A stretch of DNA of 64,000 bases from Pseudomonadota bacterium (GTDB taxonomy: Bacteria > Desulfobacterota > Desulfobulbia > Desulfobulbales > SURF-16), in NCBI GenBank assembly GCA_018897105.1, contig JAHILF010000091.1:1-64000 (forward strand), written 5' to 3'. The stretch's first letter is position 1. Each line of letters opens with the position of its first letter. This document shows, one piece after another, positions 3,198 through 35,196 of this stretch. The notes beneath the pieces were generated by a model that did not search any database, was not told the origin of the DNA, and worked only from the letters and a program-made list of their open reading frames with translations. The position numbers and the translations under genes are program-made.

Positions 3198-3217
3198 TTC
3201 CCTGTTGTTCCATATCC

Positions 3218-3589
3218 TTATTGGTCTCTATGCATCCGTGCCGTAAACCTGATCCCTATCTCAAACTGATCCTCCTGAGCTGTTTCTGCGGACCACATCA
3301 CGGCGCCGATGACCAGCATACTGGTGCAGTCACCGCTGTACTGGATGGTAACATTGCCGGAATCATCGATCTGCCATCCTTCAAAATCGAGTTTCATCAA
3401 TAGCTGTTCATTTTTCCTCCACCGCCTTGAGGAGAGAAAACGAAGACCGCCACCGCTGATATCAAGGATCAGCCCCATTTCATCAAGGGTGGCATCGGTC
3501 AAATCATCAATGACCGTATAACGGAAAGCAAACTCCTTTTCCAGCCTGTCATATCTACGCCGTTCCGCGATTATCCCTTCCTCTTTCAC
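3218..3589 (-). CDS. PilZ domain protein
   Basis: Likely c-di-GMP-binding adaptor. The N-terminal ERRRYDR supplies the RxxxR motif and DISGGGLRF supplies the D/NxSxxG motif of PilZ domains. The rest is a single beta-barrel-sized domain of about 123 residues. The start was set at GTG 3589 because GGAGG lies six bases upstream (3596-3600). An ATG at 3628 would add 13 residues but has no comparable ribosome-binding site. It is co-transcribed with cheZ and lies just after motA, so a role in tuning motor or chemotaxis output by c-di-GMP is an inference from position. Confidence 0.86.
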   Translation of the reverse strand: MKEEGIIAERRRYDRLEKEFAFRYTVIDDLTDATLDEMGLILDISGGGLRFLSSRRWRKNEQLLMKLDFEGWQIDDSGNVTIQYSGDCTSMLVIGAVMWSAETAQEDQFEIGIRFTARMHRDQ

Positions 3590-3821
3590 TGTGTTCCTCC
3601 ACTGTTTCGGATTCCATGAGGCAAGCAATCAGAATAATGTTACGAAAATTTCATTTAAAAAATCAAGCAATTACCTATAAATTGCTGGCAAAAATAATCC
3701 CACGGTCAGCTTTTTGCTGCACCAAGGCAAGGACCTTTCGCGCCTAACGTTTTGTTTTCACAACATTATTTGACACACAGAAAAAAAAGGAAAAACAGTA
3801 AAAGATTGGGGGGGCAATCCA

Positions 3822-17981: not shown

Positions 17982-18410
17982 ATGGGGAAAATCGTATGGA
18001 GCAAAGATTACAGCGTACAATCTGAATACCTTGATCACCAGCATCAGAACCTTATTAACATCCTAAATGATTTTAATCAGGCCATCGCCAGGGGAGAGGG
18101 CAAAAAGTCGGCTTACACTATCTTAAACAGGCTCGTCCAATATACGGAAGAACACTTTCGGGATGAAGAAAAACTGATGGAAATTGCACGATTTCCCGCC
18201 GAGCAGTTACATGCCCACATGAAAGAACATGAAAAACTCACGGAAGAAATCTTTCGTCACGGGGAAAACTGGAGCAGTTACGGCAAGGAGGCCCTGCCGG
18301 AAATCGGTCTGTTCCTGAAAGAATGGCTCATGGAGCATATCCTCACATCGGATATGAAATACAGTAAATATGTCGCCAACGTTGACGACACATTCCTTTC
18401 CGTCAAATAG
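17982..18410 (+). CDS. Bacteriohemerythrin
   Basis: Single-domain non-heme di-iron O2-binding protein, 142 residues. The metal ligands follow the family order: His in EYLDHQHQNLINIL, HFRDEEKLM (H and E), HAHMKEHEKL (two His) and a final HxxxxD in MEHILTSDMKYSKY. It likely buffers or senses oxygen in the cytoplasm of this presumed anaerobe. The start at ATG 17982 is chosen because AGGAG lies six bases before it; an ATG two codons earlier overlaps that site. It is a single-gene unit with a long regulatory upstream region. Confidence 0.93.
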   Translation: MGKIVWSKDYSVQSEYLDHQHQNLINILNDFNQAIARGEGKKSAYTILNRLVQYTEEHFRDEEKLMEIARFPAEQLHAHMKEHEKLTEEIFRHGENWSSYGKEALPEIGLFLKEWLMEHILTSDMKYSKYVANVDDTFLSVK

Positions 18411-18443
18411 AGAATCAAATCACTCGCCCCGTTTATGACGTTG

Positions 18444-19430
18444 TCAGTTTTCTGCGGCCGGCTCGTCCAGCGGAATCGGCAGGCCGGGGCACTGCACCAC
18501 GTAGTCGATCTCCGGCGATACCCACTCGTTCCATTCCTTGCTGCTTATGTTGCGGATGAGTTTCTTGCAAAGTTCTTCCGGCCAAGTCTTGGGGGCTCGC
18601 CACAGCCGCAGGGTAGAGTCCGAACTGCCGGAGACGATGAGCGTGCAGTCCGGGCTGTCCCGTCCGAACCGCCGGAGACGAGGTAGCTACCGTCTGGACT
18701 CAAGGCAACTGTAGAGACCGATGCGTTAGATTTACTAAATTTGCGTAGGTCCCGAAACTGCAAGAGCCCGCTCAGCACACACCCCTCCACCTCGGGGACA
18801 GGCGCAATGCGCTGTGCCGCCAATATTGCAACAGGGCACGATCATCGCCTCCACTACGCTACGCATGCCGCGCAAGGCATCCAGGCCGCCGAGGATCTGG
18901 GCATCGCGTCCGAAAAGATCGCCGCGTCATTTTCCTCCAGAACGGACAGGCCGCGATAGGGCGGGCGCTGGGGGTCCTCGGCAGGCGGCCACTGAAAATG
19001 GCGTGCATCGAGACCTGCATTGTCCAGCCAAATGTGCAAGCTGTCGAGCCCCTTGGCGAGGAAATCAATCTGCTGAGTCTGTCCTTCGTACGTAAAATTA
19101 AAAGCGGACGCAAGGCCATCGCCCACCAAATGGCAAAACTGCCATTTGGTGGGCAGTTCGCTGATCTCCACCGGCTTGAGAACGGCGCCGAAGATTCGTT
19201 TGTTGAGGCTTTTGGCGAGCAGAAACTCGGCCAGGCACCACTTGGATTTCGCCCAGGCGGGCGTGACGACAAACACCACCGCTTCGCAACGGTCCGCCGC
19301 ACGCCGCCAGATCGCACTGGGGATCGATGTCCAAAAAAACATCATCCCAGCCGTTGACGCAAAGCCACTCCTTGAGCGCAAAGGCCTCAAGTTCATCAAT
19401 GCTGGAGTGACTGAGAAAGATGCGTGACAT
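18444..19430 (-). pseudogene. Collapsed TIR-nSTAND-WD40 gene
   Basis: The N-terminus reads MSRIFLSHSSIDELEAFALK and VFLDIDP, a TIR domain, then shifts frame with loss of about 20 nt. TIR sequence resumes (CEAVVFVVTPAWAKSKWCLAE, with the WCxxE glutamate). A linker leads to PPYRGLSVLEENDAAIF, the usual entry to an nSTAND1 ATPase. A missing T breaks the frame there; the next frame gives GRDAQILGGLDALRG. The ATPase core and most WD40 repeats are gone. What remains is one repeat (VSTVALSPDGSYLVSGGSDG), another frameshift, then the classic tail STLRLWRAPKTWPEELC to the stop at 18444. Intact relatives are 3-5 kb. The gene is dead unless the TIR stub is expressed. Confidence 0.86.
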
Positions 19431-19433
19431 GGC

Positions 19434-19523
19434 TCACCTAAGCTTTCGAATATCGATCCATGATACTCTCCCCATCCTGCACTTCACTTTGTTGTCCATG
19501 TCCTCCGTTCCCCCAGGCCCGTC
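19434..19523 (-). pseudogene. C-terminal scar of a second DUF4071/SLOG-type gene
   Basis: Immediately after the CHAT gene stop, one frame reads DGPGGTEDMDNKVKCRMGRV then SWIDIRKLR and a stop. It aligns almost without gaps to the C-terminus of the intact gene at 28814-30802 (DGPGGTAHMYNEVKRRTGRV then YWLDTGNL). The DNA is also recognisably similar. It ends three bases before the ATG of the TIR relic, so its GGTGA may have served as that gene's ribosome-binding site. It shows that a TIR-like/DUF4071/SLOG gene once preceded the TIR-nSTAND gene. Confidence 0.85.
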
Positions 19524-19527
19524 GGCT

Positions 19528-22500
19528 TCAACCTTTAGGTTTCGATGGTGGCGTCGGGGTTGCGGCTGTGGATGTCGTGGCCGGCTCTCCCGTCAGTCCT
19601 TGCAGGATGGCTTTGATCGTTTTGATAGTGCCGCCATCACCACCAAGCCTTTCCAGCATCTTCTGAATAAACTTCAGCTGACTCACCACCGAGTTCTGTT
19701 CGCGCGGTGTAGCTTGGATGGTGGTAAACACCTCGCGGTAACTGGCGATTATGGTATCAACGGCATCGGCTTTCAGCTCACCCCGCAGCAGACGACGCGC
19801 AATGTCGGCATCGGGTAAGGCGACGGCATCCCACAAGTTGCGCGAGATGGCGTAACGCTCGACGGCCGCCGCTTCGCAGCGCGACAACCACGACTCGGCA
19901 TCGGGCAGCTCGTGACCCAATAGCGCCTCGATAGTGATCCAATTAACGGCGTGGTAGGGATCAAGCCGGCCGCGCTGGTCACCTGTTTTGGCCGCCTTTT
20001 TGTAATAGACCGCGCTCTGCGTCAGGGCCTCGAGCAAGGGTTCGCGCTCGGTATTGACCTGTGCCAGGCGCTTGTAAGCGCTGCCCAGCAGGGCCAGTCG
20101 CTCACGGGTCTTGCCAAGCGCAATGAGGTGCTGGAGGCGATCAATGGCATTTCCGATTAATTTGGGATCCTTCTGTTTCTCCCCTAACCGTGCCTCGAGG
20201 TTGGCAAGTTGTTCCGCGGCAGTGATGTTTACACCACTGTCCTCTTCATCCGCGGCCAGAGCACGCTGGTAATAGTCGATAGCGCTTTTGAATTCACCCA
20301 GATCGCTGTAGGCCCGGGCAAATCTGTACAGCACTGCCCCGCGGGTTTGCCACGTGGCCGGGCAGTCCTTTTGCAGCGCCAAAAGTTTTTCCATCAAGAC
20401 CTCTTTCCGCTGCTTGAACTCATCTGTCGCTGTATCTGCAAGGTCTTGTGTCTCAATCCTTATCGAACCCAAATCATAGAGAACTTCCTCCATCGCCGCA
20501 TATTGTCTGTCCTCAGGCCCAGTGCCGACATCCTCCGCGGCGTTGAGGCGGAAATTGGGGTCGCCGTATGCTTGGTAAGCACCCCAGGTGTTGCTGTCGC
20601 GGTACTGCGTCCAGGTTTTCTCGCGCGCCTTTTGCAACGCCTCGCCGAAGGTCGCGCCATTGAGCATAGCGGTGTAAAAGACCTTGGCGAACCAGTTCGC
20701 CGCATCGTCTCGCACGGCCCAGCCGGCGGCGACCACAGCGCGCACCCCCATCTCGATGAGTTCGCGCGACAGGCTGGCGGCGAGCTTATTGTAAGCGACC
20801 GAGCTCGTATCCTTGGCCTCGGGTCCCATTTGCGCCAAATAGCAGCAGTTGAGGAAGACCAGATCAGGGACATGGCGCATCTGCGCGACCTCAACCGCGG
20901 TGAGATACAAGCCGCCTTCCAGCACCATGCCGCTGCGCGCCGGGCGATCCGCCATAGTTGAGGCCTCGTAGTAGCCGTGCCCAGCCAGGTGCAGGATGCG
21001 GTAGGGTTGGGCAAAAAGCCGGTTAAATACGTCAAGGGCGTTAGGCCTCTCGGGGTTGTATTCCACTGTATAACCCTTGTTTGCCAGTAAATCGTTAACA
21101 AGCCGCGCCTCGGCGCGTGCACCCGGCAACGCGGGAATTGTGTCTGACGTGACGGGATCGCCGACGACATAGGCCCACTTGGAGGTGGCGGCGCGAATCT
21201 GGGTGCGATAATGCCCCGTTCTCAATTGACGTACGAAGCCGAGTTTCACGCATAGCGGCTCACCGCCATCCACCATCAGTTCCCAGGGATAGTTGGCGGT
21301 CTCGGCATCGACCTCGATCACCAGCCGCGTGAGCTGCCCGATGCTGTCCTTGAGCTCGTTGGGCAGCAGCAGTTCGCACAGGGTGCGGGCTGTTCCCAGC
21401 CGGAACCGGGTATCTCGTATCGAGAGTTGCACAAACTTGTCGATGAGTTCGGGTTGACGTTGCTGCACCCTCACTTCAGTACGGGCCCGGTCCGCGATGG
21501 CGACATAGAGCAAGGCGCAATGCGGCTCATTGCGGCTGTCGTTGTCAGTGAAGGCACAGTCCAGCACGGCGCGCCAAATCCCCTCATCCAGCCGGCTGAC
21601 ATCGGAGAGACTGGCCTTGAGATGCTCGGCAATCGCTTTGGGCAACATGGGCAAGCGCGTCGTTGTTTGTGGGACGGATATGGCAGTCACCGCCCAGCGG
21701 CGCCACTGTTCTGCTGTGGGCATCTGCGAACGCCGTATGCGGCCGTTGCGGCCGATGACCAGCTCTGGATCAACATCGATGCGCGCCTCCAATGCCTCAG
21801 CGATAGCGGGTGCGAGCTTGCGCGCCGCGTGCGCGGCTTGCGTGGCCACGTCGATGAACAGCTCGATGATTTCGAACCGGTTGATGCGCACCGGGATGTG
21901 GGCCCTGTCAAGCTCCACGTTTGCCTGAGCAAGCGCGCGCATCATAGCAGTGACTGAGTCCTCCACTGTAATGGCGGCCGCCGAATTGGCGCCGATCAGT
22001 AGTGCGCTCAAGCCGATCTCTTGCGCTTGGTACGCGCCCGCTGCGCGAGACATGCCATGATAAGTTTGCAGCGCGTATTGCAGCGCCCCTTCACGCACGG
22101 CATTTGCCAGTGTTCCTGTACCAAGATCACCCATCCGCCCGAGACCGATCACTACAGCACCGCGCGGAATACCCAGGCGCGTTTCCAACTCGCTCGTCTG
22201 GCCCCGCACGATAGCGGTTGTCCCCGGCGCCCCGGGATAGATGCCAAGCTGATAACGTTGCGACAGGGCGCAGTCGAGTTGGCGGTCCAGGTGAGCCTCG
22301 GCAGCGATGATGGTATCGCCGAGGTAATGGCCTACCATGACCGGGTAACTGGCATAGCGCAGATCGCCATGCACCACGCAAACCTTGAGGCTTACCGGTA
22401 CGCGCCGCCGGTAGGCCCGAACCGGTTTGCCCATGAATCCGGCGATGAGTTCGCTGCGCGTAGGATACAACAGCGGCTGCGGCGCGTAGGGCAAGCTCTT

Positions 22501-25140
22501 GATCTCACCGCGTGCCAGACTGGGAGGCATGGTCGGCAAGGCCGTGGTCTTGCCTTGTTCGAGCAGCTCGACCAGCGCCGGGAACGCCGGTTTGTGATCG
22601 GCCAGTTCACCATGTTCGGCCGCCATGTACCACGTTGCCACGCCGGGAAGTTTGCCCGCCTCGTGCGTGACGCGCCCATCGCCTGCATCGGTTGATGACA
22701 GCATAATACGGCCATGCTCGTCGATGTGCGCGCCACAAGGGGTCATGGCTGCGCTGCCCGCCACATAGACCACGCGGTCGGCATGAGCAATGTCCGCCGG
22801 CAATTCAGCCACGGCACTCTGTGCATTGGCCAACAACTCGGCCGCAGGCAGGGCGCCGCAATTTTCATTGGCTTTTTTGAGCTCTTGCCATGCGGTATCG
22901 GTGTACCAATTGAAGCTTGGCTCCTTGCTCTCCTGCTGAGGCAGCAGCTCCAGCGCTCCCGGGAAACCACTGATGATGTCCATAACACGCTGGAGGTCAT
23001 GTCCCGGATCGAGCAATGCAAGCCGGCGCACCGTGTTCGCGGCCCCGAGCAAGGTCTCGACCATGGCATGGGTACCGCGATTCGGTGTACCCAGCATGAC
23101 AAATCGGCTGCCCGGCCGAGCGCAGACCTGCTCCCATAAATCCCCATGGTCAGCAATGAAACGGCGCACCACCAGACCGCCCATACCGTGTGCGATGAAT
23201 CGCACCGGCTGGGAAGTACGCTTGAGCACCTTGCCGACCTCTTTACCCAACCCGGCGGCAGCCTCGCGGATGGACTTGCGCCAATCGTAGGCAAAGGGTA
23301 ACACCTCATGGGTGTCGGCAAGGTACTTACAGAGACTGTCATAGTACTCACCCAGCAATCCGGTGGCCTTGATGTTGCCGTCATGAATGTCCTTGATCTT
23401 CCCTAACCCGCCAAGTTTCAAATCCTGGTAATCCAGCCAGATGCTGTCTTTGCCACGCTTTAGCTGCGACCCCATGAACCCCGGCAACACGAACACCACC
23501 GGTTGCTGCATGCCCGAGCGCTTCTGTAAGGCCGGCAGCATGGGTACCGGCTCAATATGCTCCCGATCGAACGCCATAAATCCCTTCGGAGGTTGCCCGG
23601 CAGTTGCAAGCAACCACTGTGTGACCGCGATACGGGTACGTGTATTTTGAAAATAGTTGAAGTGGCTGACGTCAGCGCCCTGGTCGAAGGCGTAATATTC
23701 CTGCTCCCGCTGCGCACCGTAGAACATCGAATCGTTGTTGACCACAAGATCATTATCGCGCTGCTCATAGATGAAGCGGTCGGTGATGAACACGGCGATG
23801 CGTCTAAACCAATTACCTCCCTCGATATCTCCGGCGATGATCCCCAGTTCACCCTTTGCCTGAGTGGCCGCGTTCAACAAGCATACTAATGGAGATTCCG
23901 GCATCATCACCTCTATTCCAGGAATCAGGGCTGGGTCGGTGCGTTTTTTCGCCACTTCCAAGGTGATGCGTTTGATGACGTGATAGATCGGTGATTGGCC
24001 GATGCCCGGAATGTAGCCGATGAGATTGGTCAACAGCGAAAGAAACTCGTCAGTGTTGTCCGAGGCAAGCAAGGTGCCGCGCGCCGGGCACGCCACCCGC
24101 ACGATACGCATCACATGTAGACGCTTCTGTCGTAGCAGATCCCGCAGGCGTTTGAGCTGTTGCCTATCGTGTCTGTCGGCCACCTCAAGCTCAGCTTTCT
24201 GGCGCCGAAAACGCTCGATGCGCGCATCATCCAAATCGGACTCATTGAGACACAGCAGATCACCCACCTGGCCGCCGCGCGAGTGGGTGACCAAATAGAG
24301 TTGCGTTCCTTCCGGCAAGCACTCGACAAGGGGGATGACGTTGTCGATGGGACTCTCGCTCATCGTGCGGTGTTCGAAGGCATAAATATTTTCGCCGAAG
24401 GTCGCCCGCAGTGTGCGCCATTCCTGACTGGCGTCACGCTCGCAAAAGGCCCCGAAGCTGCCGAGGGTACGCGAGGCCGTGCCGTGGATGAACACCAGGA
24501 TGGGCTTGTCCTTGGGCAAATCGTTCGCGGTCAGTGGTGTAGCCTTGCCGAGGTCCAGCGGCGTGTCGGCGTCCACCGAGGCCCAGCGATAGAGACCGGG
24601 GTCGGGCGTAAGTCGTTTCTCGATCAAATACATCAGCAGCTTGGCGGTGGCCCAAGCGCCGGCCTGCTCCACCTGACCGAGACCCAAGTTTTTGGCACAC
24701 TCCAGCCAACTCTTGGGATCATGCAATTGTTCGGTGATATCGTCGGTCTTCAGGCGCAGCACGCGTAGCGCACCGGCGATCCATTCTTTTACACCGCGCT
24801 CCGCAAGGCTGGGCCCCGGAATGCCGCCGAGTTCCAGACCGCGATCGGAGATGGCCTCGGGATGCCAGAGCGCCACACGCTCCTGATAACGCTGGGCCGA
24901 GGTCCACAACGTCATTCCACCCTCGACCTCGATCTCGAGGATATCATCGTCCTCCACCTCGATTGTTCGCGACGCACCCTTGACCGCCGCCCTTGCGGGC
25001 TGGGAGAGGTCAAAAGCATGCACCACTTCAATATTGTCCAGCAGGTCCGTAACCGGTGGTTGCTCCGCTGCTCCCCGCATCCGCGCCCGACAAGGCTCCA
25101 GCCCCTCTTCCCGCCCCGGTATAATGAGTTGGATAGCCAT
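19528..25140 (-). CDS. Giant alpha/beta-hydrolase (x2) - CHAT protease - TPR protein
   Basis: 1870 residues. An N-terminal region of about 190 residues is followed by a first alpha/beta-hydrolase domain (about 210-480; FIHGTASRTLGSFG, nucleophile elbow VTHSRGGQVGD near 287). A second LCAT/lipase-like domain (about 555-860; VFVLPGFMGSQL) has the elbow AHGMGGLVVRR near 650, where Ser is replaced by Gly. A middle domain (about 905-1060; VVHGDLRYASYPVMVGHYLG, GRMGDLGTGTLA) resembles regions found before CHAT domains. The CHAT caspase-like protease (about 1270-1550) has catalytic His in HLAGHGYYE (about 1385) and Cys in FLNCCYLAQMG (about 1432). TPR-like helices run to about 1830. The start has GGGAGG upstream. 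It likely acts as effector/protease with the caspase and STAND genes. Confidence 0.88.
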   Translation of the reverse strand: MAIQLIIPGREEGLEPCRARMRGAAEQPPVTDLLDNIEVVHAFDLSQPARAAVKGASRTIEVEDDDILEIEVEGGMTLWTSAQRYQERVALWHPEAISDRGLELGGIPGPSLAERGVKEWIAGALRVLRLKTDDITEQLHDPKSWLECAKNLGLGQVEQAGAWATAKLLMYLIEKRLTPDPGLYRWASVDADTPLDLGKATPLTANDLPKDKPILVFIHGTASRTLGSFGAFCERDASQEWRTLRATFGENIYAFEHRTMSESPIDNVIPLVECLPEGTQLYLVTHSRGGQVGDLLCLNESDLDDARIERFRRQKAELEVADRHDRQQLKRLRDLLRQKRLHVMRIVRVACPARGTLLASDNTDEFLSLLTNLIGYIPGIGQSPIYHVIKRITLEVAKKRTDPALIPGIEVMMPESPLVCLLNAATQAKGELGIIAGDIEGGNWFRRIAVFITDRFIYEQRDNDLVVNNDSMFYGAQREQEYYAFDQGADVSHFNYFQNTRTRIAVTQWLLATAGQPPKGFMAFDREHIEPVPMLPALQKRSGMQQPVVFVLPGFMGSQLKRGKDSIWLDYQDLKLGGLGKIKDIHDGNIKATGLLGEYYDSLCKYLADTHEVLPFAYDWRKSIREAAAGLGKEVGKVLKRTSQPVRFIAHGMGGLVVRRFIADHGDLWEQVCARPGSRFVMLGTPNRGTHAMVETLLGAANTVRRLALLDPGHDLQRVMDIISGFPGALELLPQQESKEPSFNWYTDTAWQELKKANENCGALPAAELLANAQSAVAELPADIAHADRVVYVAGSAAMTPCGAHIDEHGRIMLSSTDAGDGRVTHEAGKLPGVATWYMAAEHGELADHKPAFPALVELLEQGKTTALPTMPPSLARGEIKSLPYAPQPLLYPTRSELIAGFMGKPVRAYRRRVPVSLKVCVVHGDLRYASYPVMVGHYLGDTIIAAEAHLDRQLDCALSQRYQLGIYPGAPGTTAIVRGQTSELETRLGIPRGAVVIGLGRMGDLGTGTLANAVREGALQYALQTYHGMSRAAGAYQAQEIGLSALLIGANSAAAITVEDSVTAMMRALAQANVELDRAHIPVRINRFEIIELFIDVATQAAHAARKLAPAIAEALEARIDVDPELVIGRNGRIRRSQMPTAEQWRRWAVTAISVPQTTTRLPMLPKAIAEHLKASLSDVSRLDEGIWRAVLDCAFTDNDSRNEPHCALLYVAIADRARTEVRVQQRQPELIDKFVQLSIRDTRFRLGTARTLCELLLPNELKDSIGQLTRLVIEVDAETANYPWELMVDGGEPLCVKLGFVRQLRTGHYRTQIRAATSKWAYVVGDPVTSDTIPALPGARAEARLVNDLLANKGYTVEYNPERPNALDVFNRLFAQPYRILHLAGHGYYEASTMADRPARSGMVLEGGLYLTAVEVAQMRHVPDLVFLNCCYLAQMGPEAKDTSSVAYNKLAASLSRELIEMGVRAVVAAGWAVRDDAANWFAKVFYTAMLNGATFGEALQKAREKTWTQYRDSNTWGAYQAYGDPNFRLNAAEDVGTGPEDRQYAAMEEVLYDLGSIRIETQDLADTATDEFKQRKEVLMEKLLALQKDCPATWQTRGAVLYRFARAYSDLGEFKSAIDYYQRALAADEEDSGVNITAAEQLANLEARLGEKQKDPKLIGNAIDRLQHLIALGKTRERLALLGSAYKRLAQVNTEREPLLEALTQSAVYYKKAAKTGDQRGRLDPYHAVNWITIEALLGHELPDAESWLSRCEAAAVERYAISRNLWDAVALPDADIARRLLRGELKADAVDTIIASYREVFTTIQATPREQNSVVSQLKFIQKMLERLGGDGGTIKTIKAILQGLTGEPATTSTAATPTPPSKPKG

Positions 25141-25229
25141 GGTGTTCCCTCCCTTTCCGTGTATCAGACCGATTGTTGTTGTGCCCCTTCTCTTCCCTCA
25201 CCGCTGCCCAGCCGGCTTTCGATCATCGG

Positions 25230-26075
25230 TTAAGGCAACGGCGAGAGAAACATCCGGTCGAACTGCTCCTTGCGCCCTTCGAGTTGCGGCGCCTGGTCGT
25301 AATCGCCCTGCTTGAGGTTGGCCAGTGTCTTGCGGTGCAGGTCGCGATAGCTGATCTCTCCCTTCGCTTCGGTAAGCGCTGCGACAAGATGGTAGGTCAA
25401 CGCGCCATTGTAACTGTCGCAGATATAGGCGTCGGCCGAGGTCTGGGTATCGCGGCAACCGGTGATGAGCAGCTCCGGGATGTCGGCCTCCACCACATCG
25501 CTCTTCCTGCGCCGCGCCCGCGGGGAAGCACGCAGTTCGCTGCGCAGCTTGCCCCGCAGTTTGCGCCCGGACTCCTCGGCCATCATGTCCCAGGGGTTGG
25601 GCAGGTAACGGGGGATCATCGGCGCATCCGGCGGCAGCAGTGCACGGGTGTTGGTGCCGGAGTGGCAACAGTCCATGATGACGGTCAGACTCACGCCCAC
25701 GCGCAGCTTGTCGAAGGTCGCCCGCAGCCAGTCATCCCTGAGCGGGTCCTTCCAGTCAAGATTCGTCGGGCAGAGGATCTCGTCACGATTGTCGGCCTCG
25801 TCGCCATCATCGTCCGGCACGTTGGCGCCGTGACCGGAGTAATGCACCAGCAACACATCACCCGCGCGCCCCTTGCTCACCAAATTGCGGATGGCCGCCT
25901 GCATCGCCTTCTTGGTCGCGGCAAAATCGGTAAGCACGGCGATGTCACCCGCCTTGAATCCGTAATCCCTGGTGAGCACACCCTGCATATTCTTGACGTC
26001 GTTAACACAACCCCGCAGGTCTGCGCCGGGGATCCTGTAGCGGTTGATGCCGATTAACACTGCGCGTTTGGTCAT
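25230..26075 (-). CDS. Caspase-family (metacaspase-like, C14) peptidase
   Basis: A 281-residue single-domain cysteine protease. It begins MTKRAVLIGINRY as in metacaspases. The catalytic dyad is His82 in HYSGHGA and Cys137 in MDCCHSG. An acidic loop DDDGDEADNRDE follows the His and could bind calcium. The second half carries the p10-like part with LLITGCRDTQTSADAY and GALTYHLVAALTE. There is no signal peptide, so it acts in the cytoplasm. An AGGAG site precedes the ATG. It sits 89 nt before the CHAT gene and 52 nt after the TIR-NB-ARC gene, so it is probably an executioner or processing protease of the same operon. Confidence 0.92.
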   Translation of the reverse strand: MTKRAVLIGINRYRIPGADLRGCVNDVKNMQGVLTRDYGFKAGDIAVLTDFAATKKAMQAAIRNLVSKGRAGDVLLVHYSGHGANVPDDDGDEADNRDEILCPTNLDWKDPLRDDWLRATFDKLRVGVSLTVIMDCCHSGTNTRALLPPDAPMIPRYLPNPWDMMAEESGRKLRGKLRSELRASPRARRRKSDVVEADIPELLITGCRDTQTSADAYICDSYNGALTYHLVAALTEAKGEISYRDLHRKTLANLKQGDYDQAPQLEGRKEQFDRMFLSPLP

Positions 26076-26127
26076 GGCTTACTCCTTGTTTTATATGTCG
26101 TGGCTAAATACTTTTTTAATGCAGATT

Positions 26128-28765
26128 TTAGGTTGCTGCGCTACCCTCCGCCAAAAAATTGTTCAAGCGATCTCGTATTTTGCGTTGATCTGAGCTTAGA
26201 GTCTCGGGAGCGATATCCATCAGCCAGGCGAGGTATTCTTGCATTACTATCTTCGCTTGGTCCTGCAGACCCTCTTGCGCCAAAATTTTGAGTAAGCTCC
26301 ACGCAGTATTCATCGTTGCCGTGTGATGTTGGCCCAATACCCGACAGCGCCTCACCAGTGCTTGCTTAAACAGTTCGCGAGCAGCCCCAAATTCACCGCT
26401 GCTCGCGAGGAAGCCCGCGAGGTTATTCATACTCCTCAGTGTTTCGGGGTGGTCCTCACCCAGTACCCGCTGACGCACCGTTAACACCTGTTCCTGAAGT
26501 TTGCACGCAGCAGAAAACTCCTTTAGATAAGCAAAGGTTACTGCGAGGTTATTCATATAACCCAGAGTGTCAGGGTGCTCGTCGCCCAGCACCCTCTTGC
26601 TCAAAGACAGCAGGTCCTCCTGCAATTGGAGTGTAGCTGAAAAATCGCCCAATTCAGCAAGTGTTAATGCGAGGTTGTTCGTAACCGTCAGTGTACAAGG
26701 ATGATCCGATCCAAAGACTCGGCGGTATCCCGCCAACGCTTGCGCATGTAATGCCTTTGCAGTGGTGAGTACCCCCATCTCCCGCATAGTTTCCCCAAGG
26801 TTATTCATATCCCTCAGGGTGTCCAAGTGCTCATCGCCCAGCACCCGCCGACTCACTGCCAGCACCTCCTCCTGCAGGAGACGCGCGCCATTTAAATCGC
26901 CCAAGGCCCGCAGGGTGGCCGCGAGGTTGTTCATGATCGTCAGGGTGTCCGGGTGCTCATCGCCCTGCACCCGCCGACGCATCGCCAGCACCTGTTCCTG
27001 CAGAGTGCGCGCGGCGGCATACGCCCCGCGCACGTAGTCATAATGAGCAATCCAAGCGCAAAGCATGCCAGTCGCCAGATCGTCATCCATGCCCACGACA
27101 AGGAAGCGGGCATGGATGATCCAGTTCACCAGCGTTGCGTGGTGGCGGATATCGTCGGCCTGCCCGGCAAGCTCGGCCGTAAGCGCCTGCACGGCCGCGG
27201 CACGCAGGGCTGCACTGCGCTCGGGGTGAACAGCGCGGAAACGCATTGTGCGCGTGACCAGGATATGGACGGTCACCGAGAAATCGGCAACCCCGGTATC
27301 CTCGGCCAGGGACTGCTCCCGGGCCTGGTGCAGGGCGAGGTCGGCGCGGTCTTGCGCATCTGAGTCGTTAATGCCGTCGGCAGCCGCCAATACCCGCGCG
27401 ACCAGACGTCTGGAAATGGGCGCGACGGCCAGCACGGCAGCCAGGCGCAGAAAGTCACGCGTCGTTTCGTTTACGTTATCGATGCTCTGCAGCAGCGTGA
27501 CGGCAATGCTGGCCTCGTGGCCGTTGGGTAACTGCCCGGCGAAACGGCGCGCCAAATCCAGGGCATCCGTATCCGGCTTGTGGAGATCGGCGAGAAACTC
27601 CGGATACGGTTTACCCTTGAGACGCGCGGCGGCCACATCCACCGCCAGGGCGTGACGCCCCAGGGCGGTGAGAATGCCGTCCACCGCGGCGGCCTCGGCG
27701 TCACTGACGGGCGGTCGTTGTTGGGTGAGCAAGCTGCGCGCTTCGGGCTCTGCCAGCACGCCCACATCCACCATACCACCCAATGCCTCGTACTCATGGC
27801 TGCGGCTGGTGAGCAGGGTCTTGCCGAGGGGATGGGGGGCGTACCAGCTTTGCAGATCCTGCATCGGCACATCCGCCGGCACGTCATCGATCACCCAGAG
27901 GAAGGGCTGGTTCTGGCGTGCAAAATGGGTATGCAACTCGCCTTCGATCTGGACCAGGCTCTTGTTTTTGATCTCCATGCCCAGCCAGGCGGCAAGGTTA
28001 CGCCACTGCTGCTCCCGCTGCTGGGTGAGCGCACCGGTGGAGGCGGTCGCGCCACTCTCAGCCGCCGTGCGCGCACTGAGCCAGAACACGCCGCCGGGAT
28101 AAGCGGTGCCGTAACGCAAAGCGTATTCCTCGGCCAGCAGGGACTTGCCCATGCCCCCGCCACCCACGAGCTGCGCCAGGGCCGTGCCCTGTCGGAGCTG
28201 GCCGATGACAGTCTGGCCGCGCCAGAGTGCGTCATGTATCTGCCACATATGACGCAACCGCCCCACGAAACGCGCCGAACCGGTGGGCGTGTTGGGAAAC
28301 CAGGAGGGGGTGACAAGCGGCCGGATGTCGCCGAGGGCGCCTGTCACTTCCCGCACCTGGGCCGCGATGCGCGTGGCGAGCTTGTCATAACTGGCTTGAT
28401 CATCCATGGCCGGGGCGCTGAGGTAATGCTGATCCCTCAGGCAGGGCGATGTGATCAGGCTTGGTTTCCGGATTGACGATGAGCACCCGCCGGCGCGGAT
28501 CACCAATATGCTGCGCGGCGAGGTAGGCGATGGTGAGTTCCCATTGACAGGGGCGGGAAAGCGGATAGACAGAAGAATACCATGCCAGAACCGCCTTGCT
28601 CTGCGCCAGGCATTCAGTGATCGTGGCTGTGACGGCGGCAAAGTCTTCGATCTCGCTCTCGTCGATCCACACCTTAAGTCCCAAGCCACGCAAGCGATCC
28701 GCTAGCGGACGCACATGCTGGGCATCCAGGCGCCGGTAACTTATGAACAGGTCATACGGAGGCAT
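26128..28765 (-). pseudogene. TIR - NB-ARC - TPR (NLR-like) gene split by one frameshift
   Basis: From ATG 28765 a TIR domain reads PPYDLFISYRRLDAQHV with the NADase-type glutamate Glu76 in CQWELTIAYLAA. Around 28440 the frame changes by one: the first frame stops at 28400 while the next continues DQHYLSAPAMDDQASYDKL and runs to 26128. The second part has a P-loop (VGGGGMGKSLLAEEY), a Walker B-like FLWVIDDVP and TSRSHEY, all of an NB-ARC STAND ATPase. Winged-helix-like sequence and about seven 42-residue kinesin-light-chain-type TPRs (EQVLAMRRRVQGDEHPDTL pattern) follow. Both halves look well conserved, so the lesion is recent, a sequencing indel, or programmed frameshifting. Functionally it would be the ligand sensor of the island. 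Confidence 0.82.
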
Positions 28766-28813
28766 GCGTGTGTTTTTTCAGTGCTCGTTTTTACTTGGTA
28801 GTGACAAGGCTCA

Positions 28814-30802
28814 CTAAAGATTTCCAGTGTCGAGCCAATAGACTCTCCCGGTCCTGCGCTTCACTTCGTTGTACATATGCGCCGTCCCCCCAGGCCCATC
28901 GCCGCCTTCGCCATTCCATAGGCAGACGAAGCGCACCTTGTCCACGCCGCAGGCAAGCGCGGTGTAGAGCAGCCAAAGATTGCAGCGCTCGTAAGGGTAG
29001 CCTGGTTCGGCCTGCGGCGGCGGCTCACCCAGCTCTTCCGGTGCGGAACGAATGGGAGCGGCGAGTTTGGCCTTCGCATCGAGGTAGCGCTGGCGCCAGA
29101 ACTCACAACCACGCACCACGGATTTGTCGATGAAATCCGGTTCGCGAAACGGCTGCAGCCAGTGCACTTTCACGCCCCGCTGCTGGCAGGCCTCGGTGAA
29201 CAACAGGTCGCCACCGCAGGCGCCCTGGGTAAGAGCGAGATCGTCCGGGCCGGCGCCGAGCTGGTCCAGCGCTTCGGCAATCTTCTGCGCGGCGATGGGT
29301 TCTTTCCTGGCGGGGAAGCGTGGTGGGATACGACCAGGCACGTCGATCATGTGGCCGCTGAACAGAAACACCTGGCGCGGTTGCCAGCGGTCCACGGGCT
29401 GGGTGAGTTTTTGCAGTGCACGATCAAAGGTGGCGAGGCCGGTATCGACGTTTTCCGGTTGAAAACCCAGATCCTTGAGCAATTGCAGTTGCGCCCGGCT
29501 GGAACTGAGCGCGAACCAGTCCTTGTCGTTCTTGGCGATGGCCTCCTTGTAGGCGGCCTTGACGGTATCCGGCGTGCCGACCAGCACTTCAAGATCGCCG
29601 ATGGTCGCGAGGGACCAGAAGCGTTGATGCTCGTCAGGCTCGCACTCCGCGGCGAACCTGACCGCGCCGGCCATGGCGGCCATCTCGCGGTCGTAGCGCG
29701 TGTCGTGGGTGAGGAGGTGGCGGTGCAAGTGCATCAGGGTGAGCGCATTGATGCCGGAGTAGTAGTGGCCGGGGTTGTGCCGATAGCCCTTGGCGTAGCT
29801 GTCGATCGCGGCGCGCAGCAGGACATCTTCGTAGGCCGCTTCATCCCGCATTTCTTCGGGCGTTTTATCGGGCTGGCGCCAGGCGGCGGTCCACGCATCT
29901 TTATCTACACGGCCCAGCAACGCCCAGGTTTCCGGGTCGTTAGGGTGGTTTTTTAATATGTTGCGGTAATGCTCACGCGCACGGTCCAAGGTATGGACTG
30001 GATCGCCGTCCGCACCCAAGCGCTGCAGACAGATGCCCTTCTCGCGAAGACCTTTCAGGTTGCCCGGGTCGATCGCCAATCCGCATTCGAGTTGTTCCAG
30101 CGCAAAGTCGAAGCGCTCGGCCTTGCGCAAAGCCTCACCCGCTCTGATCCAAGCCTCTGAGCGGAACGCGGCCACCGGGGCTTCGTCCACGAGCACCAGC
30201 ACATCACCGATATGCCCCGCCTTGCGCGCCAAGATAATGCGATCTTCCCAGGCATCGTGCTGCGCCCAGAACTCACGCACCTCGCCGATACGAAGAGATT
30301 TCCAGTCCGGCTCCTGCAAATTAGGCATCAACTGATACACCGGGCTTACCTTGCGTCCGTGCCAAGACTCCAGCGTTGCCTTGGCCATTTCGGTTAGATG
30401 GAGTTTGTCGTTTTCCAGCGTGGTGGGATCCGGCCCCCCGGCTCTGATGCTGTAGCGCAACTTGCGATCGGTATAGAGATCGAAGGCGGTTGCCACTCTC
30501 CCGCCGCTGATCAGCACTACACCACGGGCACGCAGTGCATGGCGTACACCCAGTTCGTACCAGACATTGGGGTTGTCGAGGGTGAGATCGGCCAGCACCA
30601 AATCGGCGATCAGCAACTCCTGGAACATGTCGGTGCGAATGTCGCCGGCGCGCTCTTCTTCGTCCGCGCGAAAGACGTCCAGACCTGCTGATTCAAGTGC
30701 TGGCTTGATCAGTTCGGTATAGACACGATTGAAATCGATATCGTTGCCCTGGCGATCCTTCTTTACACCGAAAGGCATGGCGACAAAGGCGTGCAGTTTC
30801 AT
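28814..30802 (-). CDS. TIR-like/deoxyribosyltransferase-fold - DUF4071 (TRAFs-binding) - SLOG-like protein
   Basis: 662 residues, first gene of the island operon. The N-terminal domain (1-115: HAFVAMPFG, DMFQELLIADLVLADLTLDN, then Glu83 in NPNVWYELGVRHAL) has the nucleoside 2-deoxyribosyltransferase/TIR-like pattern, with the Glu where such folds act on N-glycosidic bonds. The centre (about 175-460) is helical TPR-like sequence of the DUF4071 or MAP3K TRAFs-binding type. The C-terminus (about 475-660: FLFSGHMIDVPGR, TQGACGGDLLFTEACQQRGV) looks like a SLOG/Rossmann nucleotide-binding domain; that last call is by pattern only. The start at 30802 was taken for AAGGTG upstream. It might sense or degrade a nucleotide such as NAD+. 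Confidence 0.78.
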   Translation of the reverse strand: MKLHAFVAMPFGVKKDRQGNDIDFNRVYTELIKPALESAGLDVFRADEEERAGDIRTDMFQELLIADLVLADLTLDNPNVWYELGVRHALRARGVVLISGGRVATAFDLYTDRKLRYSIRAGGPDPTTLENDKLHLTEMAKATLESWHGRKVSPVYQLMPNLQEPDWKSLRIGEVREFWAQHDAWEDRIILARKAGHIGDVLVLVDEAPVAAFRSEAWIRAGEALRKAERFDFALEQLECGLAIDPGNLKGLREKGICLQRLGADGDPVHTLDRAREHYRNILKNHPNDPETWALLGRVDKDAWTAAWRQPDKTPEEMRDEAAYEDVLLRAAIDSYAKGYRHNPGHYYSGINALTLMHLHRHLLTHDTRYDREMAAMAGAVRFAAECEPDEHQRFWSLATIGDLEVLVGTPDTVKAAYKEAIAKNDKDWFALSSSRAQLQLLKDLGFQPENVDTGLATFDRALQKLTQPVDRWQPRQVFLFSGHMIDVPGRIPPRFPARKEPIAAQKIAEALDQLGAGPDDLALTQGACGGDLLFTEACQQRGVKVHWLQPFREPDFIDKSVVRGCEFWRQRYLDAKAKLAAPIRSAPEELGEPPPQAEPGYPYERCNLWLLYTALACGVDKVRFVCLWNGEGGDGPGGTAHMYNEVKRRTGRVYWLDTGNL

Positions 30803-31348
30803 ACACTCACCTTTTCTTTCCCTTAACCACCCCATGCACTGGTTCAGGCCTATCTCAACCGGGCCAATGGCATTACGGCAATCCGGGCGACGTTAACCAA
30901 AAGAACAAACGTTTGCAAACCAAAAGGTCCCATACCTCATCTAGCGTCAAAATTGACCATGTCTGCCGCTATCCTAACAATCTCGTACAATGAGATTCGT
31001 GTTGTGTAAATAGGGTAAATTGTCGCACCTCTGCGTTGAAGACTGGATTCCGCATGTATCCAAAAAAGACGATAATAGGTTGTGGTTATTGTATTAATAC
31101 CTTAAAGAAATTATAAAAAAAGTGAATACTCCCCCGGATGCATGAATTTGATGGGCGGCTTACACGCAGATCCGTTAATCAAGGCTCTTGAGGTTCTTTT
31201 CGGTGATGTGGAATGAGACAGGGCATAACAACTTTTGAGCATCAAAGCGCAAAACGCCTTTTGCCGGAATGAGAATTTCATTCCAGCAGATATTATGCCT
31301 TATTCTGCCACATCACCAGGCCACAAATATCATATCGAATTGAGCCGT
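30803..31348. other. Intergenic region upstream of the island operon
   Basis: About 545 bases with no credible gene. It holds a 10-bp perfect palindrome CAAACGTTTG (30907-30916) and a small hairpin AATCTC-N7-GAGATT (30978-30996), both candidates for operators of the minus-strand island operon. I could not find a convincing -35/-10 pair. The composition drops to AT-rich past about 30950, marking the island edge. Confidence 0.45.
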
Positions 31349-31974: not shown

Positions 31975-34900
31975 TCACTTATCCGTTTCTTCTTCGTCCG
32001 CCAGCGGGCACTTACGGTTTTGGAAAAATTCGAAATAGAGCAGAGGCACGGCAACCAGCGTCAGGGCGGTGGCCGCCACCGCGCCGAACATCATGGCAAT
32101 GGCCAATCCCTGGAAGATCGGATCAAATATCATGACAAACGAGCCCACCACCACCGCCAGGGCCGTCAGCACAATGGGCCGCAGTCGCACCGCACCGGCC
32201 GTGATCAGGGCAGTACGCAACGAGCCGCTGCTCAGCCACTCCATCTGGACAAAATCCACCAGCAGCACGGAGTTGCGGACAATAATACCGGACAGGGCGA
32301 TAAAGCCGATCATGGAGGTGGCGGTGAAAAAGGCGCCGAACAGCCAGTGCCCCGGCAGAATGCCCACCAGGGTCAGGGGAATGGGGGCCATGATTACGAG
32401 GGGGGTGACAAAGCTGCGGAACCAGGCCACCACCAGGATATAGATCAACACCAGCACCGCGGCAAAGGCCATGCCCAGATCACGGAATACCTCATAGGTA
32501 ATCTGCCATTCACCATCCCACTTCATGGCGTACTTGGTCTCCAGCCATGGCTGCTCGGCTGAATACTGCTGCAGTTCATAGCCCTCCTTCAGGGGGATCT
32601 GCGCTACCCGGTCCTTCATCTCCAGGATGGCGTAAACCGGACTTTCTATGGCCCCTGCCACATCACCGATGACATAGGTGACCCTTTTCAGATTCTTATG
32701 ATAAATGGTCTTATTTTCCACGCCCTGGCTGATGCGCACCAATGCGGCAAGAGGAATAAGGGAACCATCGGCGGCCGGCACGGTCACCTCCTGCAAAGCC
32801 GCAATGCCTGCCCGCTCAGGCAGCGAGGCGCGCAGCATCAGCTCAACCGGTTCCTTCTCATTTTCATAATGCACCAGGCCTGCCGGGGTGCCATTAAGCG
32901 CCATACGCAGACTCTGGGCAACCAGCGTCGTGCTGATGCCATGGTATGCCGCCTTTTCCTTGTCCACGGCAAAGGTGAATTTGGTCTGATCATCCTCCAC
33001 GAACCAGTCCACATCAACCACCCCGTCGGTGGTCTCGAAAATGTTTCTGATCTCTCTGGCTATCTCAACCTGCCCCGCTGTATCCGGTCCATAGACCTCG
33101 GCCACCAAGGTACTGAGCACCGGCGGACCAGGGGGAATTTCCACCACCTTGATGCGGGCACCATAACGGTCGCCGATCTCCTTGAGCGGGGGGCGCAGCC
33201 TTTTGGCCAAATCATGGCTCTGCATTTTCCGCTGGCCCTTGCCGACGAAATTGACCTGAATATCCGCCACGTTGCTGCCCTGACGTAGAAAATAATGGCG
33301 CACCAGACCGTTGAAGTTGTAAGGCGCGGCTGTGCCGACGTAGGTCTGAAAATCAGTCACCTCCGGCACGGTCTGCAGATAGTCGCCCAGCTCCCGCGCC
33401 AGGGCGGCGGTTCTCTCCAGGCTCACCCCTTCCCGCATATCGATGATAACCTGCACTTCGCTCTTATTGTCAAAAGGCAGCATCTTGACGGTTACGCCCT
33501 TAAAGGGCACCAGCAGTATGGACAGAAAAAGAAGGACGGCGACAATGACCAGCATGAGCACTCTTTTGCCGCGGTGATCGAGCAGCGGACCGAGTATCCG
33601 CTCATACAGATCATGCAGACGGCTGGTTTCCTGTTCCCCCGGCGCATCGCTTTTCACATTCTTCAGCACCTTGTAACTGAGCCAGGGGCTGACGATAAAG
33701 GCCACCAGCAGGGAAAAAAGCATGGCAGCCGAAGCGCCCACCGGGATGGGCCGCATATAGGGTCCCATAAGTCCCCGCACAAAGGCCATGGGTAGCAGGG
33801 CAAAGATGACGGCAAAGGTTGCCAGAATCGTGGGGCTTCCCACCTCATCAACCGCCTGTACGGCGGTGCGCGTGCTGACACCGTGCAGCTTGAAATGGCG
33901 GTGGATATTCTCCACCACCACGATGGCATCATCCACCAGAATACCGATGGAGAAAATCAGGGCGAACAGAGTGACCCTGTTTAACGTATAACCGTAGAGA
34001 TAGTTGATCAGCAGGGTAAGAGCCAGGGTCACGGGAACCGCCACGGCCACCACCAGTGACTCGCGCCAGCCCAGGGTGAGGGCCATGAGGATGATTACCG
34101 AGATGGTGGCGATGAGCATATGATCCAGCAGCTCATTTGACTTCTCTTTAGCTGTCTCGCCGTAATTGCGGGTAACCGTCACCTGGATATCGCTGGGCAG
34201 GATGCCGCCGCGCAGCTTGTCGATCTTCGCCAGCGCCTCGCTGGCCACCGTACTGGCGTTTGCCCCTTTTTTCTTGGATATGGCGATGGTCACCGCCTCC
34301 CGGGGAGCGGCAAGCGACGGCATATTCTTGTCAGCCGCCGCCGGGCCGCTGTTCATGAACACATAATCAGCAGGCTCCTCCGGCCCGTCAAAAAGATCGG
34401 CCACCTCCCGCAGGTAGATGGGTTTGCCGTCCGCCACCGCAACCACCACCCGGCCCACCTCTTCAATATTTGCCAGAAAGCCCCCGGTTTCAACCAGGAA
34501 CTCTTCATTGTTTGACGGGAATGCGCCGGAAGGGAGCACGAAATTGGCCTGCTGCAGGGTCTGTATGATCTGCACGGCCGGGATGTGGTAGGCCCTGAGC
34601 CGGGCCGGGTCAAGGTTGACCCGCACCTGTCGTTTTTGTCCGCCGATCACAGAGAACTCCGAGACATTCATGTCCTTCTTCAGTTCGTCGGCCACCTCCA
34701 CGGCTACGCGCCGCAGTTCATAGCCGGAATACTGCCCCTTTTCATTCCACAGGGTCAGGGTCAGGATCGGCACATCGTCAATGGATTTGGGCTTGACCAG
34801 GGGCTGGGACACCCCGGCGGGAATCCGGTCATAATGGGACATGAGCTTGGTGTGCAGGTTAACGAGACTCTTCTCCATGTCCTCGCCCACATAGAAGCGG

Positions 34901-35196
34901 ACAATGGTCAGGTTCATGCCGGGCTTGACAATGGAATAGATATATTCCACTCCCTTGATCTCCCATAGAAACTTCTCCATGGGCTTGGTGACGCGCTCTT
35001 CCACCTCCTTGGCCGTTGCCCCGGGATAGGTGACAATGACATCTATCATGGGCACGACAATCTGCGGCTCCTCTTCCCGGGAGGTAACGAGCAAGGCAAA
35101 AACGCCGAGCAGCAGGGAGGCGAGCACGATGAGCGGCGTCAGCTTTGATTTGATGAACGCCTTGGCGATGACGCCGGAAATGCCGATATCTTTCAT
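31975..35196 (-). CDS. RND efflux transporter, permease subunit
   Basis: Proton-driven inner-membrane pump, 1073 residues, AcrB/HAE-1 group. TM1 is near the N-terminus ([20 protein letters not shown]), followed by the porter domain starting [21 protein letters not shown] multi-helix block lies at about 340-560 with [16 protein letters not shown] (the paired Asp of TM4) and a second at about 880-1050 with [13 protein letters not shown]. Translation is coupled to the adaptor gene (ATGA overlap at 35193-35196). The substrate is unknown. It differs from typical CzcA metal pumps but cannot be assigned finely by eye. Confidence 0.93.

Follow-up and report, generated by a model that had tools for sequence, protein, structure and literature searches.

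Several bacterial systems join protein folds of the kinds found at the locus described here. TPR-CHAT (Csx29) of Craspase is a CHAT protease with TPRs. TPR-S conflict systems, reportedly set out by Burroughs and Aravind in 2020, are said to combine the TPR-S domain with deoxyribosyltransferase/TIR-like and SLOG domains, and NAD-derived signalling was predicted for them. According to the accessible part of PMC12847820, messengers made by TIR proteins switch on macro-domain and caspase-like effectors: type II Thoeris contains the macro-domain protein ThsA, and type IV Thoeris contains a TIR together with a caspase-like protease that senses the TIR-made N7-cADPR. The accessible parts of three other reports describe VMAP systems, in which caspases have a neighbouring alpha/beta-hydrolase gene (PMC7159879); canu, in which a caspase activates a gated pro-nuclease of the MBL fold (PMC12799240); and components of the ASK signalosome that have been traced to bacterial conflict systems (PMC8195603).

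A stretch of 64,000 nucleotides (the window) carries an operon that resembles each of these in part. Its genes lie on the minus strand in the order gene 1 (a TIR-like/TPR-S/SLOG protein), gene 2 (a TIR ORF followed by a STAND-TPR part), gene 3 (a C14 metacaspase), and gene 4 (a giant hydrolase-CHAT protein). Like the reported TPR-S conflict systems, gene 1 joins TPR-S to deoxyribosyltransferase/TIR-like and SLOG domains. Relative to TPR-CHAT/Csx29, the giant has its TPR C-terminal to CHAT and has hydrolases fused to it, and no CRISPR partner was seen among the genes scanned. As in type IV Thoeris, a TIR and a caspase-fold protease are encoded together in one operon, although here the TIR ORF is cut from the STAND part by a frame change; unlike type IV, the TIR here is part of a STAND-TPR receptor family, and there are two caspase-fold proteases, the likely effector being the giant with its hydrolases, macro-like domain, and TPR-S. 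The macro-like fold in a possible effector of a TIR signal recalls type II Thoeris; however, this domain is nearest to aminopeptidase N-domains and is embedded in a hydrolase-CHAT protein. Canu likewise places a gene for a caspase-family protease beside one for an effector enzyme; here, though, the partner is the hydrolase-CHAT giant rather than an MBL-fold nuclease, and Pfam scans of the operon genes contained no MBL-fold family. Finally, the locus shares a caspase with an alpha/beta-hydrolase with the VMAP/MoxR-vWA ternary systems, but no MoxR or vWA family came up when the operon genes and their near flanks were scanned with Pfam.

The four genes of the operon

ORF coordinates confirm four genes on one strand with short spacers, as the sequence-only reading had it: 48 nt between genes 1 and 2 (28766-28813), 52 nt between gene 2 and the C14 gene (26076-26127), and 89 nt between the C14 gene and the giant (25141-25229). 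That reading had carried the operon down to position 18444. The fourth gene ends at 19528, and positions 18440-19430, also on the minus strand, are a decayed gene of the TIR-WD40 type, which three-frame translation finds spread over several frames (TIR_2, 0.0005; the WD40 pieces were recognised by eye only).

Gene 1 occupies positions 28814 to 30802 (ORF 28814-30835, with a conserved start at 30802). Of the TIR-like-DUF4071-SLOG architecture proposed for it, the DUF4071 part is borne out by Pfam, which matches TPR-S (PF20308, 2e-16) and, overlapping it, MAP3K_TRAF_bd (5e-7), which we take to be DUF4071; the TIR-like and SLOG parts have no convincing match in Pfam and are instead recognised by predicted-structure comparison. 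The AF2 model (pLDDT 89) contains a deoxyribosyltransferase/TIR-like domain (residues 1-148, about 30359-30802), an ASK1-like TPR-S region found by Pfam, profile, and structure comparison (residues 181-471, about 29390-30262), and a YpsA-like SLOG domain (residues 475-662, about 28817-29380). When Foldseek's own matches, chiefly TPR proteins among the first 50 listed for the whole protein, were re-ranked with VIA-align, the model aligned with ASK1 (Z 15.9), YpsA (Z 15.6), and DNPH1 (Z 13.4). The central region of ASK1 (5ulm) stands in the first row for the TPR part, over 260 residues, with Rap proteins tied with it within one Z unit (RapI 15.4, Rap 15.1); a comparison with 8qgy aligned 389 residues at an rmsd of 10.2. 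The sequence profile also reaches 5ulm (6.9e-8), many generic TPR chains scoring better, and a Pfam scan of the operon found no kinase domain in gene 1. In the enzyme domain, the Glu of an ELG motif aligns structurally with a Glu of DNPH1/Rcl. Profiles of the N-terminal and SLOG domains gave weak matches (best 0.064) or nothing relevant against PDB sequences, and the SLOG family YAcAr matches three of seven gene 1 relatives (best 0.00018) and is absent from the window protein; assignment of these two domains therefore relies on fold comparison and on YAcAr in the relatives. Similarly, gene 1 and the giant showed no significant similarity in BLASTP, so it is Pfam that identifies TPR-S (PF20308) as common to both.

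Gene 2 had been read as a single TIR-NB-ARC-TPR protein. Its TIR and TPR parts stand: a TIR ORF of 121 aa (28400-28765; TIR_2, 3.7e-14) precedes a STAND (NB-ARC-like) and TPR part (26128-28450, in an ORF that runs to 28689), recognised from TPR_10 (1e-66) and TPR_12 in Pfam, from NCBIfam FxSxx_TPR (7.4e-80, 269.5 bits, below the cut-off of 300 bits), and from a paralogue. NB-ARC itself falls below the Pfam cut-off (0.0056; 16.4 bits against 23.5), with a P-loop, GGGGMGKS, visible in the translation. The single frame does not stand. The TIR and STAND frames differ, meeting near 28436-28442, so that the window contains no one protein with a TIR, a P-loop NTPase, and repeats. The paralogue in the same genome (C80) is an intact 951-aa TIR-STAND fusion, uninterrupted at the break point and 76-77% identical to gene 2 on both sides of it; tblastn with this protein places the frame switch at 28434-28444, and a homologue in another genome (G198), likewise continuous, switches in the same stretch. 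Because the gene is frame-broken, or mis-assembled, the TIR-STAND sensor may be non-working in the source genome. Matches of the window TIR to defence models are weak (ThsB in PADLOC, 7.6e-5 and 0.0042; type III ThcB4 in NCBIfam, 0.00054, far below cut-off); the TIR of a paralogous cluster in the same genome (C74) matches ThsB of PADLOC at 4.8e-21. A further copy (C105) is also broken, and its TIR-STAND adjoins gene-1-like ORFs.

Gene 3 (25230-26075) was correctly recognised as a C14 metacaspase: it matches Peptidase_C14 (5e-32), has the His/Cys dyad (SGHG...DCCHSG), and resembles the metacaspase-4 and -1 structures in profile comparison (6e-32 to 9e-31). The His and Cys of both motifs are kept in all 40 C14 proteins that adjoin giants. 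The PADLOC 'caspase' model PDLC02987 matches residues 5-197 (2.6e-22) through only positions 5-135 of its 453, and NCBIfam caspase_w_EACC1 matches below cut-off.

Gene 4 (19528-25140) encodes the giant, of 1870 aa. Both proposed hydrolases and the CHAT protease are present. Hydrolase 1 (DUF7379; 23581-24528, 1.5e-30) has the proposed triad S287-D464-H493, in which Ser is kept in 82 of 85 aligned giants (one Cys, two gaps) and Asp and His in all 85. Hydrolase 2 (22531-23523) resembles LCAT (Pfam, 1.8e-6) and group XV PLA2 (4x90, 1.4e-5), but the catalytic Ser assumed for it is Gly652 here; 81 of the 85 giants have Ser at this nucleophile position, and the window giant is one of the four with Gly. 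The CHAT domain (20560-21393, 6e-34) contains H1388 and C1432/C1433, and the His and both Cys are kept in 85/85. For hydrolase 1 and CHAT, the catalytic positions are conserved beyond chance (82-85 of 85). Two further domains had been overlooked. The first, macro/M17-N-like (21766-22392, about residues 917-1125), was identified by profile (PDB 3jru, 0.0047), AF2 (pLDDT 88), and Foldseek (leucyl aminopeptidase, 2.5e-6; macroH2A, 3.1e-5); ADP-ribose binders match it no better than aminopeptidase N-domains do, and Pfam reports M17_N in the C74 giant paralogue (4e-5) and not in the window giant. The second is TPR-S (19930-20292, 4.8e-13), found at E 0.01 or better in 71 of the 83 giant C-termini scanned, two of the 85 being too short. 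With a frame break in its TIR-STAND gene and no nucleophile in hydrolase 2, the window operon may have lost part of its activity.

Neighbours of the giant across genomes

Neighbourhoods were compared at 85 giant loci, the window included; because the fetched relatives are the best 80 of at least 423, close kin are over-represented, and one locus (L018), which duplicates the record of another (L068), was excluded. C14, C11, TIR, and gene 1 proteins were counted among ORFs of 90 aa or more using our own iterative HMMs (E 1e-6). A C14 gene lies immediately upstream on the same strand at 40/85 loci, or 27/67 after clustering the giants at 70% identity, and only one locus of the 85 has a second C14 elsewhere in its flanks. 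Pfam scores 38 of 61 upstream ORFs as C14 (the 61 exclude L018 and 24 loci in which no ORF was found). Gene-1-like modules are nearby at 17/85 loci, a TIR is within 5 kb at 22/85, and 26/85 have none of the partners tested. From these counts it follows that the metacaspase and the giant are a genuine unit, for which gene 1 is a frequent partner and TIR-STAND an optional one. Giants also occur without C14: of the 49 loci whose sequence extends at least 9 kb on both sides, 20 have none adjacent. At these 49 loci, the density of TIR ORFs rises only about twofold close to the giant compared with farther away (8 within 2.5 kb, 11 beyond), and the TIR was rejected as a general core part of the system. 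An 849-aa ORF in one genome (G362), considered as a component, was dropped; Pfam finds no domain in it, and its sequence looks like that of a shadow frame.

Thus, the idea of a conserved system survives with C14 plus the giant as its core, but the four-gene set put forward for it does not. All four classes occur within about 5 kb at 4/85 loci (the window, L024, L025, and L028), counting any TIR ORF as 'TIR' and any module as 'gene 1' (L024 has the SLOG part only). Recurrent co-localisation of at least three of the four classes, which had been proposed as support for a system, is seen at 17/85 loci.

The rarity of the full set is what would be expected if gene 1, TIR-STAND, and the C14-giant pair were unrelated immune genes gathered by chance in an island and decaying here, as the frameshift in gene 2, the destroyed TIR-WD40 gene downstream, and the broken C105 copy might also suggest. 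Nevertheless, the spacers are short and regular on a single strand, the order gene 1, C14, giant is repeated at L077 and L096, and TIR-STAND adjoins a giant in C74 (where a TIR-NACHT-TPR gene lies 57 nt upstream of the giant) and L074 and gene-1-like ORFs in C105; we therefore regard a chance gathering as very improbable.

The counts bear differently on a simpler, canu-like arrangement, in which C14 alone would activate the giant by cleavage, with gene 1 and TIR-STAND as separate island neighbours and no nucleotide messenger. C14 far exceeds every other partner in frequency and is the sole one among those tested at 28/85 loci, a C11 clostripain takes its place at 2/85, and canu provides a precedent for a caspase-activated pro-enzyme, as far as the accessible part of PMC12799240 goes. 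However, the giants carry their own TPR-S and macro-like domains, which suggests a ligand, and gene-1-like modules co-occur with giants far above chance: in phylum samples, of five genomes that encode a full giant, four contain a match to part of gene 1 (hypergeometric p 1.8e-7, or 8e-6 without the window genome, kinship and genome size being ignored). On balance, activation by C14 alone seems unlikely.

Spread, and probable exchange and mobility

On a quick tree of the giants (450 randomly drawn columns), the presence of C14 changes at least 10 times on starred branches and a minimum of 13 times in all once 8 loci with less than 1.2 kb of upstream sequence are set aside; the pairing has therefore been gained or lost often. 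One C14 subtype is common to eight loci (support 96/90), and placing the giants of these loci and their nearest kin in one clade is rejected (p-AU 0.0003; quick tree, 500 randomly drawn columns). At L059, L062, and L085, the C14 is 73-75% identical to that of the window and the giant 37%. Given these two observations, C14-giant pairs seem, from sequence comparison, to have been re-formed by exchange. The C14 tree does not reject one clade for the five C14 of the window clade (p 0.326) and fixes neither the order within the eight nor the direction of exchange; constant co-descent of C14 and giant is not supported by the two trees.

The window operon was probably acquired horizontally. GC is 57-63% in the operon region and 49-55% across nearly all of the remaining window; positions 33001-36000, outside the operon, reach 57.7%. 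Pfam scans of the nearby flanks show ordinary chromosomal genes. The giant family is patchily distributed over nine phyla among the matches listed. Eight copies are on plasmids, and one of these adjoins genes for type I restriction-modification and transposases. Two plasmid copies were inspected, one of which lies among sugar-transport genes. No giant was found in phage records at E 1e-10.

The ordinary flanks, the lack of a phage-borne giant at that threshold, and the first-row, though tied, match of gene 1 to the ASK1 central region would fit a stress- or redox-responsive pathway of cell death or lipid signalling, analogous to the ASK signalosome, in which phages are not the target. The patchy spread, the plasmid copies (one with restriction-modification and transposase neighbours), the raised GC, and the neighbouring TIR and STAND genes, which are usual for mobile conflict systems, argue against this reading, and we consider it decidedly unlikely. 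As the pair recurs in several bacterial phyla, the operon probably serves in cell death or in defence against phages.

A proposed pathway and its significance

The reading we prefer, and to which we give roughly even chances, is of a horizontally mobile module for immunity or regulated cell death, with C14 and the giant as core and gene 1 and TIR-STAND-TPR as accessories, acting as follows. The STAND receptor, as sensor, or another trigger would detect invasion. The TIR, the enzyme domain of gene 1, or both would then release the base from NAD+ or a nucleotide, and the product would be bound by the TPR-S domains, the macro-like domain, or both. Ligand binding would activate CHAT, and the C14 protease would cut the giant or other proteins. 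The proteases and hydrolases would thus be the effectors, the lipase-like hydrolase attacking the cell's own lipids such that growth stops, or the cell dies, before phage release. The signal, the trigger, the order of steps, the substrate, and phage as the target are given here as we infer them.

A more specific form of this pathway, which we advance tentatively and think rather less than likely, is a bacterial ASK-like signalosome. In this form, gene 1 would be a scaffold that relays a TIR- or NAD-derived messenger to the TPR-S/macro receptor of the giant, and CHAT in cis and C14 in trans would together switch on a cell-destroying lipase. No two-protease, messenger-gated, lipolytic death pathway is described in the accessible parts of the related literature compared. 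In the catalogues searched, the C14-giant pair did not turn up as a system, and the giant matches no model in PADLOC or NCBIfam. Likewise, no paper describing the giant or its pairing with C14 was recognised in a literature search, which is weak evidence of absence with most subscription papers outside its reach.

The analysis turns a widespread CHAT family that has no PADLOC or NCBIfam model into a concrete two-gene unit of metacaspase and giant. It also offers a possible role for prokaryotic metacaspases, for which the neighbouring giant is a candidate substrate. If the proposal is confirmed, TIR/NAD signalling, caspase-fold proteolysis, and lipid hydrolysis would be connected within a single bacterial pathway, and the TPR scaffold of the animal apoptosis kinase ASK1 would gain a bacterial counterpart.

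The operon, its setting and its receptor genes

All genes of the operon lie on the minus strand. Gene 1 (28814-30802) matches Pfam TPR-S and MAP3K_TRAF_bd, the latter formerly named DUF4071. It is followed by gene 2, in which a TIR ORF (28400-28765; TIR_2) precedes a STAND-TPR frame that runs down to 26128 (Pfam TPRs), by a C14 metacaspase (gene 3, 25230-26075; C14), and by a giant protein of 1870 aa (gene 4, 19528-25140; DUF7379, LCAT, CHAT and TPR-S). Re-measured on the window, the spacers are the 48, 52 and 89 nt of the sequence-only reading, whose genes and most of whose domains also stood. Its description of gene 2 as a single TIR-STAND frame did not: two different frames meet near 28436-28442. 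The GC content is 57-63% across the operon (3-kb bins, 18001 to 30000) versus 49-55% in the other bins of the window, with 33001-36000 (57.7%) as the sole other high-GC bin. Since the operon stands out in this way amid chemotaxis, hemerythrin and efflux genes, it is probably an acquired island.

A paralogue of gene 2 on contig C80 of the same genome (951 aa) and a homologue in another genome, G198 (929 aa), are both continuous TIR-STAND proteins, which argues that gene 2 of the window is frameshifted or the assembly wrong at that point; the C80 paralogue is 76-77% identical on either side of the break. At the C80 locus (L115, 3231-7999), the gene after this intact TIR-STAND fusion encodes a 565-aa relative of U575, a G025 protein whose relatives also lie downstream of some giants. 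Contig C105 (L117, 712-4710) carries another broken receptor copy, a TIR-STAND gene in two ORFs that share one frame; judging by the coordinates, this points to an in-frame stop. A gene-1-like gene, itself split over two ORFs, lies directly after it. Fragments of a TIR protein, together with what by eye are fragments of a WD40 protein spread over several frames, occupy 18440-19430 downstream of the giant. Thus, given these fragments, the gene 2 frame break and the C105 split, several immune-receptor genes of the source genome look broken.

Domains and conserved residues

The predicted model of gene 1 (pLDDT 89.2) was split into three parts by re-comparison of Foldseek's own matches. Residues 1-148 resemble DNPH1, deoxyribosyltransferases, MilB and the RUN1 TIR (Z 12.3-13.4); residues 181-471 resemble the ASK1 central regulatory region in the first row (Z 15.9, 260 residues), with which Rap proteins tie (Z 15.1-15.4); and residues 475-662 resemble YpsA (Z 15.6), a SLOG protein. 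The gene 1 sequence profile reaches ASK1 at 6.9e-8, ranking under many designed and natural TPR chains, and the Pfam TPR-S and MAP3K_TRAF_bd matches are the more specific evidence. An ELG motif in the enzyme domain, invariant in 10/10 relatives and preceded by Tyr in nine, aligns with the YELG of Rcl, whose Glu is catalytic.

In an alignment of 85 giants, the proposed Ser, Asp and His of hydrolase 1 are kept in 82, 85 and 85 sequences, and the CHAT His and both Cys in all 85. The Ser of hydrolase 2, a domain similar to group XV phospholipase A2 and LCAT, is present in 81; Gly replaces it in the giants of the window, L028, L040 and L050. For residues 885-1200, a structure predicted with 78 sequences (pLDDT 87.9) has leucyl aminopeptidases and macro domains, some ADP-ribose-bound, as its top PDB matches. 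TPR-S is present in 71/83 giant C-termini.

Distribution and partners of the giant

A scan of genome contigs confirmed at least 423 giant relatives, the best 80 of which were examined. Together with own-genome and phylum-sample loci, and one duplicate dropped, these give 85 loci (67 clusters at 70% identity) labelled with 9 phyla. Within the window's phylum sample, 6/395 genomes have matches, five of them full giants. No giant was found in phage records at E 1e-10. Relatives occur on eight plasmids, two of which were inspected: on an Azotobacter plasmid (L120, NZ_CP066312.1) the giant adjoins type I restriction-modification, Fic, recombinase and transposase genes, and on the second, from Paracoccus yeei (L121), it lies amid sugar-transport genes. 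On the latter plasmid, a 1094-aa gene (2256-5540) lies 37 nt upstream of the giant; its sole match is a solute-binding protein (3.2e-6), and it could be a sensor. Azotobacter chroococcum (L088) has a tandem pair of giants with a TIR protein in between.

The sequence-only reading had proposed a four-gene defence or cell-death system. The metacaspase and the giant hold up as a unit, and gene 1 and the TIR-STAND gene appear optional. C14 lies immediately upstream on the same strand at 40/85 loci (27/67 clusters; 40/77 loci having at least 1.2 kb upstream) and C11 at two; run on 61 upstream ORFs, Pfam gives 38 C14, three TIR_2 and two C11. Gene-1-like modules occur within 5.5 kb of the giant at 17/85 loci and TIR within 5 kb at 22/85, while 26/85 are without any tested partner. 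Where both flanks reach at least 9 kb (49 loci), the counts are C14 29, TIR 10 and gene-1-like 12. Part of gene 1 is matched in 7/390 phylum genomes, four of which also have a giant (G352 has the SLOG part only, and in G362 the two are at least ~17 kb apart); uncorrected for kinship or genome size, the probability of this overlap by chance is 1.8e-7, and it rises to 8e-6 when the window genome is excluded.

The source genome has a second giant (C74, L006, 7544-17124), which shares 35% identity with that of the window over the alignment. A TIR-NACHT-TPR gene ends 57 nt before this giant, and the two are closely preceded by a Bax1-I family gene. Contig C164 (L008, 6013-9831) encodes a 1272-aa protein with TIR, CHAT, NB-ARC and TPR. 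Among 57 downstream ORFs, Pfam identifies ten TIR_2 and six Peptidase_M15_3. The latter are taken to be the ~220-290-aa genes that, at L077, L086, L087, L090, L096 and L100, stand between the giant and a U575-like protein of ~520 aa, an arrangement that appears to be an extended variant of the locus. Five of these six loci also have C14, and three (L077, L090, L096) have full gene 1. By eye, the U575-like proteins look membrane-spanning.

Apparent exchange of the protease and a possible mechanism

A quickly built tree of the giants requires at least 10 changes of the C14 label on starred branches and 14 in all (13 when the eight loci with less than 1.2 kb of upstream sequence are omitted). The C14 proteins of the window and of seven further loci group together with support (96/90); inside this group, a single clade of the five window-clade C14 is not rejected (p 0.326). 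However, when the giants of these eight loci are tested along with their closest kin from the two clades, a single clade is rejected (p-AU 0.0003). Thus, this subtype of the protease has seemingly passed from one giant to another only distantly related to it, which is what a functional pair with exchangeable parts would be expected to show.

The operon holds candidate signal makers, receivers and executors. The TIR and/or the gene 1 enzyme domain may be the source of a messenger, the TPR-S and macro-like domains would receive it, and CHAT, C14 and the hydrolases would be the executors. In Thoeris, TIR messengers switch on macro-domain and caspase-like effectors (PMC12847820); in VMAP systems, caspases are accompanied by an alpha/beta-hydrolase gene (PMC7159879); and in canu, a partner enzyme is activated by a caspase (PMC12799240). 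That the genes are present and conserved is established; each later step is one that we infer, and the most economical reading would be a messenger-gated, protease-switched lipase.
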